This document shows, piece by piece, positions 38,988 to 43,182 of a stretch of 64,000 bases of DNA. Under the pieces are notes generated by a model. The model was not told the origin of the DNA and made no database searches. It saw only the letters and a list, made by a program, of their open reading frames with translations. This DNA is from Parasaccharibacter apium. Its GTDB lineage: Bacteria > Pseudomonadota > Alphaproteobacteria > Acetobacterales > Acetobacteraceae. The translations under genes were made by a program, and so were the position numbers. The DNA is taken from the NCBI RefSeq assembly GCF_002592045.1, contig NZ_MEJG01000004.1:62001-126000 (forward strand), in the 5' to 3' direction. Position 1 is the first letter of the stretch. Each line of letters opens with the position of its first letter.

Positions 38988-41780
38988 ATGCCAGATTGCG
39001 CCTCCCCAACTGACGCATCGCCTGCCGAACTGATTAAATCCTACGCGGCTACGCTTACACATAAGCCGCATGACCTCTCCAGCCTCATTATTACATTAGC
39101 GGAAAAAATAAGTGCTCCGGGAGAGAATGAGACAATCAAACAGGCGATCCGTCTATTACGGGACCGCAACTTCACAACACGCGCTGCCGCCCTGCGCCGT
39201 TATATCGGCTTAGAGCAAAACGGGGCGGAGGCATCCCCTACCGAACGGTTACGCCATGTAGCAGAGCAGCTTGTAGCCCATGCAAAAACGCCGGATGACC
39301 TCGCTATAACGGGTTTTTCTGCCGTTTTTACAGCCCATCCCACCTTTGCTTTAGCCAATGATGTGTACGACCTTCTCGCCCAATGTGCGGAGGATCCGGC
39401 CCATCCTCTCCCCATCCTGCCGACCCATCGCCGTGCTGCCCCTCCCACATTGGATGAGGAACAAGCCCTCGCCCTTGCCGCCATCACGCGCGGACGCGAT
39501 GCGTTGGATGTCCTCGCCCAAAACATCTTCCAAGCAGCACGTCAGCGTTGGCCAGAGGTCAAGAACCTAAATCCCGCCCCTATCAAACTCGCAAGCTGGG
39601 TAGGGTTTGATACTGATGGACGTAATGATATTGGCTGGTGGGATACAATCCGCATCCGCCTCGGCCTTAAAATCGCCCAGCTAGAACGCCTCTTAGAGGG
39701 GCTGAAAAAGATTGGACTGCACGATTCCCCTCTTGGGGAGCGCGTTCTTGCGGCCCTTATGGCCACAGTGCAGCAACGCGATGCCTGCCCACGCTCCATC
39801 CCGGGGAAAAGCTTAACACCAGAAGAGATTGTCCAGTTCTCACATAAGCTCATCTCATTGCGCGAGACGGCCTTGCTTCATGCGGAAGATTTGCTCCCGC
39901 TCTTCCAAGCAGAGCGTGCCAAGCTGGATGATGCAACGGCTCAAGAGCTTGATGTCATCCGGGCTGGCTTTCTCAATCACGGTCTTGGTATCTCCCATAT
40001 CCATACCCGCCTCAATGCTGCGCAGATTTATAATGTCGCACGCACGCGTTTAGGGTTGACGGACGATCCAACACTCCCCTTCCATCGCCGGGCTTTACTC
40101 TCCCATATTGATGCCGCGATGGATAACCTCAAACCCCTCGCGATTGATTTCGGGGCCTTGTTGGTTGAACCAAGTGCCGCCTCGCGTTTGATGATGACGA
40201 TGGCGCAGATCCTCAAACATATTGATTCCGGATCGCCCATTCGCTTCCTCATTGCAGAAACGGAGAGCGGCTATACGCTGCTTGCGACTTTGTGGTTAGC
40301 GCGCCTCTTTGGGATTCGGGATGAGCAAATCGAAATATCTCCCCTCTTTGAGACTGAAACAGCTCTCGAAAATGGGGCAGAGATTCTTGAGGAAGCCTTC
40401 CGCTCTCCCCATTGGCGGGCTTATCTCCGTGCTAATGGGCGGCTCTCGCTGCAATTTGGTTATTCCGATTCCGGCCGGTATGTCGGCCAGCTCGCAGCAG
40501 GGCCAATGGTCGAGCGACTACGGCTACGCACCTTAGAGCTTATGAAAGAACACGGGCTGGATGACATCGCCCTCACTATGTTCGACACACATGGTGAGAG
40601 CATTGGCCGTGGGGCGCATCCTTTCAGCCTTAAAGAGCGGTTGGATTATTTCTCCCCCGCTAATACCCGCCAAGCGTTAAAAAAGGCCGGTATCACCAGC
40701 CGGGTGGAAACGGCCTTCCAAGGAGGGGATGGGTATCTTCCCTTTGGCACGGCTAAGCTTGCTGCCTCTACCATCGCCACATTAGCGGAGTTTGTCGCCG
40801 CTCAACATGAGCCAATCGACCCTATTGCTTTAAAAGACCCCCTCTTTAGCAAGCCTGATTTTGCGATGGATTTCTTCTCCACCATCGCTTTAAAGATGGG
40901 GGATTTGGTGGATGACCCCGGCTATACAGCCCTCCTAAGTGCTTTTGGCCCCGCTTTGGTGGATAAAACAGGCTCCCGCCCTTCTGCCCGTCAATCCGAT
41001 ACAGCGCGGGTGACGCGTATTACGCACCCAAGCCAAATTCGCGCTATCCCTAATAACGCCATCCTCCAACAACTTGGCTGGTGGGCCAATGTGCTACATG
41101 GCCTTGGGGGCGCAGCACGGCGTCATAGCGAGCAATTTGAGCAATTACGGCATAAATCTCCCCGTTTTCGCCAGCTTATGGATTTCGCAATCCAAGCTCT
41201 TAAACATTCGGACCTGGATGTCCTGCGTGCGACCATCCATCAGCTTGACCCCGGCACATGGCTCAACCGCGCAACAGAATGCGATAATGCCGATGACCGT
41301 ATGCACTTCCTCAGCATCGCGCGCGACTTGGAGGAGCTAGAATTCTGGAAGAGTGTGCCCGCCCTTTTCCGCCGGATTCAACGGGAGGATATTGCTCTAC
41401 GTTCCGCCTGGCCAGAAACACCCCGCATGGAGGTTGAAGAAAAACTCCTCCATGTCATCCGTTTCGCTTTGATGGAACGGATTTGGACATTAGGCACCCA
41501 GATCCCCTATTTCGGCCCACGTGGCGGCCTCACGCGTGAGGCCATCACCACCTTGATTCTCTGCCTCGATGTCCCACGGGCCTTGCGCCTCTTGGATGAT
41601 CTTTTCCCCATCTCTGCCCCCAGCATTGCCGACCTCGACTTCGGTGAACCCGGCGGGGCGGGAGAAGCCCAAGGCTTTGCACGCGAACATCGGGAGATCT
41701 TCCAACCGCTGCAAGAGGCGTTTGACCTCCTTCGTGAGGTTGGCATCGCCATCATGCATGCAAACCATTGCTTTGGCTAA
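38988..41780 (+). CDS. Phosphoenolpyruvate carboxylase family protein with altered active site
   Basis: A 930-aa protein aligned by eye to PEP carboxylase over its length. Retained: the TAHPT core with His117 (E. coli His138), PLFET (metal Glu), YSDS with Asp494, SIGRG with Arg541 (Arg587), TGSRP, IRAIP. Changed: TAHPTE is TAHPTF (Phe120), the Lys after YSDS is Arg497, and the loop FHGRGG is FDTHGE, so His579 and Arg581 of E. coli are replaced by Asp533 and His535. The GGDRDGN motif reads GFDTDGR. The C-terminus ends NHCFG rather than the invariant NTG. It may be a divergent PEPC or a relative with another role. Monocistronic, with a strong hairpin downstream. Confidence 0.8.
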   Translation: MPDCASPTDASPAELIKSYAATLTHKPHDLSSLIITLAEKISAPGENETIKQAIRLLRDRNFTTRAAALRRYIGLEQNGAEASPTERLRHVAEQLVAHAKTPDDLAITGFSAVFTAHPTFALANDVYDLLAQCAEDPAHPLPILPTHRRAAPPTLDEEQALALAAITRGRDALDVLAQNIFQAARQRWPEVKNLNPAPIKLASWVGFDTDGRNDIGWWDTIRIRLGLKIAQLERLLEGLKKIGLHDSPLGERVLAALMATVQQRDACPRSIPGKSLTPEEIVQFSHKLISLRETALLHAEDLLPLFQAERAKLDDATAQELDVIRAGFLNHGLGISHIHTRLNAAQIYNVARTRLGLTDDPTLPFHRRALLSHIDAAMDNLKPLAIDFGALLVEPSAASRLMMTMAQILKHIDSGSPIRFLIAETESGYTLLATLWLARLFGIRDEQIEISPLFETETALENGAEILEEAFRSPHWRAYLRANGRLSLQFGYSDSGRYVGQLAAGPMVERLRLRTLELMKEHGLDDIALTMFDTHGESIGRGAHPFSLKERLDYFSPANTRQALKKAGITSRVETAFQGGDGYLPFGTAKLAASTIATLAEFVAAQHEPIDPIALKDPLFSKPDFAMDFFSTIALKMGDLVDDPGYTALLSAFGPALVDKTGSRPSARQSDTARVTRITHPSQIRAIPNNAILQQLGWWANVLHGLGGAARRHSEQFEQLRHKSPRFRQLMDFAIQALKHSDLDVLRATIHQLDPGTWLNRATECDNADDRMHFLSIARDLEELEFWKSVPALFRRIQREDIALRSAWPETPRMEVEEKLLHVIRFALMERIWTLGTQIPYFGPRGGLTREAITTLILCLDVPRALRLLDDLFPISAPSIADLDFGEPGGAGEAQGFAREHREIFQPLQEAFDLLREVGIAIMHANHCFG

Positions 41781-41847: not shown

Positions 41848-43182
41848 TTAGTCCTCCTCCCGCCACACGCCATTTCTGGCACGTTTCAACAAGATACCGG
41901 GTTGGAAATCAGCCCGCCAAATCTTGGGGATACCAACCCGTTGGGAGAGATAAATCCCCGTATGGCCGGAGCATAAATACGCAATAAAACAACCCGTTGC
42001 GTAATAAACGATGTTCGTACCCCCAAAAAGCTCGACCCCCATAATGGTACAAGCTAATGGGGCATTTACTGCGCCCCCAAAGACAGCCACCATGCCTACA
42101 CCGGCGAGCAAATCCCCCGGCACACCTAAAAATGGTGCGAGGGCATTGCCTAACCCAGCCCCTATGAAGAAGAGCGGCGTAACCTCCCCTCCTTTATAGC
42201 CTGTTGCCAAAGCAATGACGGTAAAGAGCAGCTTTAATAACCAACTCCACGCATAATGTGTTGAGCCGAAGAAATTGACAATGGACGCCCCGCCAAGCTC
42301 CGGTGCTGTAACGCCCAAGCCCAAATAATCCCGCGTCCCTAAAAGCCAGACCAGTGCAATCGTTGCGACACCGCCAATAGCTGGCTGCAACCATGTGTGA
42401 GGGCAAAGTTTTTTAATAAGCGGGGCAAGCCTATACACCCCCTCGGAGAACGCCTTACTCGCAAACCCAAAGGCTACCGCTGCAAGAGCCACCTTAACCC
42501 ATAACAACGCATCCACATGGAAAGCAGGCTGACCTTGAGCTGCAAATCCTTTAAAATTAACGATATAACTCGCGTGATGAATCCCCCATTGATGGCATGT
42601 CCAATCCGCTATGATGGACGTTACCGCAACGGGCAAAAGTGCTGAATAATCCAACGCCCCAAGCGTGACGACCTCCAGCCCAAACACCGCCCCGGTAATC
42701 GGTGTGCCATAGACTGCCCCTAGGCCGGAGGCCATACCGGCCATGAGCAGGATACGCGTCTCTCTTTCATCAAGACGGAAGAGCCGCGCAAAATTACTAG
42801 CAAGGCTTCCGCCCATCTGCACCGCTGTACCTTCCCGCCCAACAGATGCCCCGAATAAATGGCTCACCACCGTCCCAATGAACACAAGGGGAGCCATACG
42901 CAACGGTACGCCTTCACCAGGCTTGTTAATCTCATCAAGAATGAGGTTATTGCCCCCGCCGGCACGGCCACCCCACCAATAATAAGATAACGCTACAGCA
43001 ACACCCGCCAAAGGCAGCCCATATAGAATGTTCGGATGGGTAAAGCGATAATGCGTTACCCATTCCAACATCCACAGGAACAGGGCGCAGAAGCTCCCTA
43101 CGAGCAAGGCAAGCGGCACTAAAAGGCAGAACCAACGGCCCAAGCGCAGCATAAAGGCTATAATTTCTTTAAAAGATACCAT
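41848..43182 (-). CDS. CLC-family fluoride/proton antiporter (CLC-F type)
   Basis: A 444-aa CLC channel/antiporter-family membrane protein. The selectivity motifs differ from chloride CLCs in the way described for the fluoride-exporting CLC-F clade: GGGNNLI in place of GSGIP, GREGT in place of GREGP, and GGEVTPLF in place of GxFxP. The proton-glutamate in GREGT is retained. An AGGAG box is 6 nt before ATG 43182. A fluoride riboswitch sits in the leader, giving independent support for fluoride export. Annotation as a chloride channel would be misleading. Confidence 0.88.
   Translation of the reverse strand: MVSFKEIIAFMLRLGRWFCLLVPLALLVGSFCALFLWMLEWVTHYRFTHPNILYGLPLAGVAVALSYYWWGGRAGGGNNLILDEINKPGEGVPLRMAPLVFIGTVVSHLFGASVGREGTAVQMGGSLASNFARLFRLDERETRILLMAGMASGLGAVYGTPITGAVFGLEVVTLGALDYSALLPVAVTSIIADWTCHQWGIHHASYIVNFKGFAAQGQPAFHVDALLWVKVALAAVAFGFASKAFSEGVYRLAPLIKKLCPHTWLQPAIGGVATIALVWLLGTRDYLGLGVTAPELGGASIVNFFGSTHYAWSWLLKLLFTVIALATGYKGGEVTPLFFIGAGLGNALAPFLGVPGDLLAGVGMVAVFGGAVNAPLACTIMGVELFGGTNIVYYATGCFIAYLCSGHTGIYLSQRVGIPKIWRADFQPGILLKRARNGVWREED

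Follow-up and report, generated by a model that had tools for sequence, protein, structure and literature searches.

The gene and its active-site motifs

The window analyzed here, a 64,000-nucleotide stretch of the genome of Parasaccharibacter apium, an acetic acid bacterium associated with bees, carries an intact gene for a 930-aa protein with the fold of PEP carboxylase (PEPC; Table 1). The DNA belongs to Bombella, with close blastp matches in Bombella sp. ESL0385 (99.6%) and B. saccharophila (99.8%). Pfam returned PEPcase (PF00311) alone, with 67.4 bits against a gathering cut-off of 22.4 and an alignment limited to residues 414-545, and the NCBIfam PEPC equivalog (NF000584) matched at 75.1 bits, well below its cut-off of 815. 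A first-pass annotation of this DNA had described the open reading frame (ORF) as full length, without frameshift, and the gene as maintained. The 930 intact codons agree with the former statement, and the invariant motifs and a dN/dS of ~0.04 (see below) with the latter.

Table 1. Positions in the window of the PEPC-fold gene and its motifs, with residue numbers of the 930-aa product and of E. coli PEPC.
Feature	Residues	Coordinates	Strand	Remarks
PEPC-fold protein, divergent alphaproteobacterial subfamily	930 aa	38988..41780	+	Intact, uninterrupted ORF
TAHPTF	115-120	39330..39347	+	Canonical TAHPTE; His117 corresponds to catalytic His138, Phe120 takes the place of Glu141
GFDTDGR	206-212	39603..39623	+	Canonical GGDRDGN; Arg253 lost, invariant Arg212 at the Asn256 position
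HTRLNAAQ	339-346	40002..40025	+	Arg341 equals E. coli Arg396; canonical DIRQ / DLRQNS
PLFET	452-456	40341..40355	+	Metal ligand Glu506 kept as Glu455
GYSDSGR	491-497	40458..40478	+	Canonical SDSxK; Asp494 corresponds to metal ligand Asp543, Arg497 takes the place of bicarbonate-site Lys546
FDTHGESIGRG	532-542	40581..40613	+	Canonical FHGRGGSIGRG; His579 to Asp533, Arg581 to His535, Gly583 to Glu537; Arg587 kept as Arg541
FQGGD	577-581	40716..40730	+	Subfamily-specific motif, roughly at canonical TEQGE
GSRPSAR	662-668	40971..40991	+	Arg699 kept as Arg664, Arg703 kept as Arg668
IRAIPNN	684-690	41037..41057	+	Arg713 kept as Arg685

As commonly taught, PEPC catalysis requires the HGRGG loop together with a group of invariant residues. 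Roles of individual residues (metal ligands, His138, PEP-holding arginines) follow the structures of the E. coli and maize enzymes. The window protein lacks both the FHGRGG loop with His579 and Arg581, where it reads FDTHGE, and the combination of GGDRDGN with Lys546, where it has GFDTDGR and Arg497. Equivalents of the residues expected across the PEPC superfamily, i.e., metal ligands Glu506 and Asp543, His138, Arg396, Arg587, Arg699, and Arg713, are all present. Profile-profile and multiple alignments reproduced the substitutions previously listed (E141 to F120, R253 to T209, N256 to R212, K546 to R497, H579 to D533, and R581 to H535) as well as the retained features (H138 as H117, D543 as D494, R587 as R541, and the PLFET, GSRP, and IRAIP motifs). 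Retention of E. coli R396 as R341, seen in the hhalign profile-profile alignment and a later multiple alignment, extends that list. Relative to canonical PEPC, the protein has lost two positive charges (Arg581 and Arg253) and one imidazole (His579), and has gained His535 with its imidazole, two acidic residues (Asp533 and Glu537), and the invariant Arg212. In Flaveria PEPC, Lys600Arg (equivalent to K546R) is tolerated, with both Km values raised (PMC6363079), and Arg450 and Arg767, which correspond by numbering offset to E. coli 396 and 713, are called essential in the title of Gao and Woo (1996), cited in the same paper.

An ordinary PEPC whose substitutions merely reflect alignment error, with the true HGRGG and GGDRDGN motifs elsewhere in the protein, is hardly credible. 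Although identity to canonical PEPC is just ~14-17%, the flanking anchors LF...GESIGRG and TSW-GxDxDG aligned free of gaps in phmmer, hhalign, and MAFFT, and the Pfam and NCBIfam matches span this same segment. The gene product belongs to a distinct, apparently uncurated subfamily of a known enzyme. Since the defining motifs were tested and found absent, it should stay outside the canonical PEPC equivalog, yet it probably works like canonical PEPC.

Conservation, fold, and phylogeny

Invariance was judged over 40 Acetobacteraceae sequences and then over 34 sequences from many alphaproteobacterial families, which reach down to 33% identity. F120, R212, R497, and H535, together with the retained H117 and R541, were invariant, as were Asp208, Asp210, Gly211, Arg341, Asn343, Glu455, Asp494, Thr534, Gly536, Arg664, Arg668, and Arg685. 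The Asp533 position is Asn in two plasmid-borne relatives and one genome of the class sample. The corresponding canonical residues, including the His, Gly, Arg, Gly, and Gly of HGRGG, were equally invariant in 15 canonical PEPC sequences, and no mixing of the two motif sets was seen among the sequences compared. Among Bombella orthologues, dN/dS was ~0.03-0.045, with synonymous sites saturated. Decay specific to one strain is ruled out by the invariant motifs and this low ratio (~0.04). Since the unusual residues are fixed across a large alphaproteobacterial group, the gene is most likely not broken or one of a kind but encodes a working enzyme whose catalytic loop is built differently.

An AlphaFold2 model of the 930-aa protein, built from 24 sequences (pLDDT 84, pTM 0.88), showed the full-length PEPC fold, with residues 2-930 aligned. 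It matched maize PEPC with a Z-score of 27.2 and E. coli PEPC bound to Mn2+ and a PEP analogue (1jqn) with a Z-score of 26.5 over 748 residues at 4.7 Å. The altered-motif loops (206-209, 536-540, 663-675, and 685-690) have pLDDT <50, and consequently the residue at the Arg581 site is not readable from the model. With canonical PEPC (E. coli Ppc and maize C4; PF00311, NF000584) the protein therefore has in common the full-length fold (Z 26-27), the PLFET, YSDS, GSRP, and RAIP motifs, and the metal ligands, His138, and four arginines named above; it differs in its low identity, TAHPTF, GFDTDGR, the Lys546 to Arg change, DTHGE in place of HGRGG, and a saturated separating branch. Archaeal-type PEPC (3odm, 526 residues) shares the core fold, with a Z-score of 14.9 over 460 residues. 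Membership of that family, whose proteins have ~500 residues compared to 930 here, was rejected, as 3odm also went unmatched by sequence profile search at E ≤10.

A 54-sequence tree completely separated the 38 divergent PEPCs from the 16 canonical ones by one fully supported branch, which at ~6.4 changes per site is in effect saturated. In a sample of the phylum, the divergent form occurred in Alphaproteobacteria only; its profile scored 349-1309 bits for its own members vs. ≤64 for all others, and neither profile scores nor the tree revealed intermediates between the two forms in that sample.

The order sufB ... DUF445, PEPC, fusA was kept in most of 55 fetched Acetobacteraceae loci (DUF445 and sufB in 49), and DUF445 and fusA were kept at the G100 locus. 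This conserved order points to vertical inheritance within Acetobacteraceae. In the window, a ClC-type chloride channel gene (41848-43182) lies between PEPC and fusA; since only 14 of the 55 related loci have it, this gene looks specific to a lineage, within a gene order that is conserved in other respects. One copy from Betaproteobacteria, carried by a plasmid of Burkholderia pyrrocinia (NZ_CP150851.1; L158, 5830-8622), is Acetobacteraceae-like (47% identity) and groups among Acetobacteraceae-type sequences in the tree, an apparent transfer out of Alphaproteobacteria. Acetobacteraceae-type copies also occur in records labelled Neisseriaceae bacterium ESL0693 (65%; L044) and Rhizobiaceae bacterium CPCC 101076 (49%; L077), which are probably mislabelled genomes rather than transfers.

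Distribution and metabolic context

The window protein was matched in 150 of 200 Acetobacteraceae genomes and in 89 of 102 genera; a few of the hits are canonical PEPCs matched weakly, and the divergent form itself is present in ~145. Canonical PEPC, counted in Acetobacteraceae at >500 bits to PF00311, occurs in just seven of the 200, of which three (G107, G153, and G187) lack the divergent form and four also have it (G100, G157, G049, and G178). In the last of these, the canonical gene (G178:C150, L093) is split into two ORFs. A sample of the class, 289 alphaproteobacterial genomes, held ~45 with the divergent form, 31 with the canonical form, and one with both (G479), whose copy matches a plasmid-borne copy of Methylobacterium. 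This single co-occurrence compares to 4.8 expected (Fisher p = 0.03, phylogeny ignored); the two forms rarely share a genome. A sampling artefact or a single clade is ruled out by the ~45 class genomes, which belong to many families. The suggestion of a lineage-wide form that had not been noticed as such is therefore borne out, both family-wide and through many alphaproteobacterial families.

Further PEPC-like ORFs of ~690-1164 aa were found in small alphaproteobacterial genomes (L221 in G308, L222 in G209, L223 in G244, L224 in G342, and L225 in G368). They match PF00311 weakly (27-90 bits) and the divergent profile not at all, two of them read TAHPTN and TAHPTT, and they are possibly yet another PEPC-like group.

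In G169, an Acetobacter-sized genome, a change of frame close to residue 137 splits the divergent gene (L227, 1799-4451), and the gene has been called a pseudogene in A. pasteurianus 386B (PMC6915089). Since it is frameshifted in some Acetobacter, the gene is dispensable there. Frameshifting in at least one Acetobacter-like genome, along with loss of the canonical HGRGG loop, would fit a protein of PEPC fold that has degenerated, is non-catalytic or regulatory, and serves another role. We consider this improbable, since the replacement residues are invariant, without drift, in all Alphaproteobacteria sampled, as are the metal ligands, His138, Arg396, Arg587, Arg699, and Arg713, and most of the genomes have no partner canonical PEPC.

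The window genome is estimated to be 100% complete. The first-pass annotation had proposed a search for a second, canonical ppc; this was carried out and none is present in the genome, nor are a pyruvate carboxylase or oxaloacetate decarboxylase domain, an ATP-type PEPCK, or an isocitrate lyase. Among 31 hand-chosen Acetobacteraceae genomes, which are not independent, ATP-PEPCK was present in 17 of the 18 lacking both PEPC forms vs. two of the 13 with the divergent form (Fisher p = 1e-5). The divergent form thus stands in for canonical PEPC and the other anaplerotic enzymes searched for, in support of the earlier reading of the gene as a divergent PEPC. Three genomes (g73), named Komagataeibacter by a cellulose synthase D subunit (BcsD) nearly identical to PDB 3a8e, have the divergent form and no canonical PEPC; two of the three also have PEPCK. 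PEPC activity has been reported for Gluconacetobacter xylinus from kit measurements on cells of a strain outside the genomes examined here (PMC4047042), and the title of Benziman (1969) refers to the PEPC of Acetobacter xylinum. We found no published description of a divergent alphaproteobacterial PEPC class, or of ppc in a G. oxydans knockout screen.

Neighbouring genes are informative in the named relatives. A CoA ligase pair of the SucCD/MtkAB type lies directly upstream of the divergent gene both in Phyllobacterium and in genus g138 (three genomes); the SucCD-type pair scored 555 bits vs. a cut-off of 604, too low to favor malate-CoA ligase firmly over succinate-CoA ligase. The phnS2/phnT2 genes near the g138 loci were rejected as context because a leucyl aminopeptidase gene intervenes. 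On a Paracoccus plasmid, a canonical ppc sits in an mtkAB-hprA-ppc-glyA operon, in a place matching that of the divergent relatives beside such ligases. In this serine-cycle-type position the PEPC of Paracoccus aminovorans H5 resembles some divergent relatives; however, this protein and those of the Acetobacteraceae loci L090-L093 have all the canonical motifs (TAHPTE, GGDRDGN, SDSNK, and HGRGG) and belong to the canonical clade, whereas the divergent form is without these motifs. The B. pyrrocinia copy adjoins genes for RraA, D-glycerate dehydrogenase, and 5-oxoprolinase, and that of Sphingobium adjoins an enolase and a kinase. The Sphingobium cluster, on plasmid AP027342.1 (L160, 1253-8628), comprises a dehydrogenase, an APH-type kinase, a second enolase, an FAA hydrolase, the divergent PEPC (annotated as a hypothetical protein), and an integrase, and looks like a mobile hydroxyacid-to-C4 pathway.

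These neighbours bear on whether the protein has become a different enzyme, one that takes PEP or a similar enol phosphate and either hydrolyzes PEP to pyruvate or acts on another phosphorylated enol acid. A PEP hydrolase and a neofunctionalised relative were both suggested in the first-pass annotation, and no positive evidence for either emerged. Replacement of all the phosphate and bicarbonate residues (R581, H579, K546, and R253) by other fixed residues, the very deep split from canonical PEPC (a stem of ~6.4 changes per site), and the coexistence of both forms in G100, G157, G049, G178, and G479 would favor such neofunctionalization. We nevertheless regard it as unlikely, considering that an enzyme which did nothing but hydrolyze PEP would waste it futilely and would not replace PEPC, PYC, PEPCK, and ICL in small genomes, that the PEP-binding arginines and Arg587 are kept, and that the neighbouring genes fit a flux from PEP to C4 compounds.

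Probable function and significance

Taken together, the fold, conservation, distribution, absence of the alternatives searched for, and gene context make it likely that the gene encodes a functional, biotin-independent PEPC of a distinct alphaproteobacterial subfamily, which would convert PEP and bicarbonate to oxaloacetate as the main anaplerotic step in Bombella; the activity itself we infer. Counted against this reading is the absence of Arg581 and His579, which are invariant in canonical PEPC. PEPC chemistry proceeds by transfer of phosphate from PEP to bicarbonate, giving carboxyphosphate and enolate, followed by addition of CO2 to the enolate (PMC8100219). In the window protein, the metal would be held by Glu455 and Asp494 and PEP bound by Arg341, Arg664, and Arg685, while Arg541 and His117 would act on bicarbonate and carboxyphosphate. 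Arg497 may stand in for Lys546 of the bicarbonate site, and the phosphate and charge roles that canonical PEPC gives to its H-G-R-G-G loop and Arg253 may fall to the D-T-H-G-E loop and Arg212. We infer that the gained residues (His535, Asp533, Glu537, and Arg212) compensate for the lost Arg581, Arg253, and His579. More tentatively, PEP, the metal, and the retained arginines could serve a reaction other than carboxylation, or a chemically different carboxylation in which the Asp-Thr-His-Gly-Glu loop and Arg212 replace the Arg581/His579 loop, and which would be a second active-site solution displacing canonical PEPC over much of Alphaproteobacteria.

The split between the divergent and canonical forms is easily missed because family libraries file the subfamily under canonical PEPC, far below the equivalog cut-off. 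A whole clade has a fixed alternative set of residues, and it includes industrial acetic acid bacteria (Gluconobacter and presumably Komagataeibacter). If the enzyme is inactive as a PEPC, the anaplerotic step is wrong in metabolic models of acetic acid bacteria. If it is active, those models should not borrow the kinetic and allosteric parameters of E. coli Ppc, and the subfamily would show, as an experiment set up by nature, which residues bicarbonate activation really requires.
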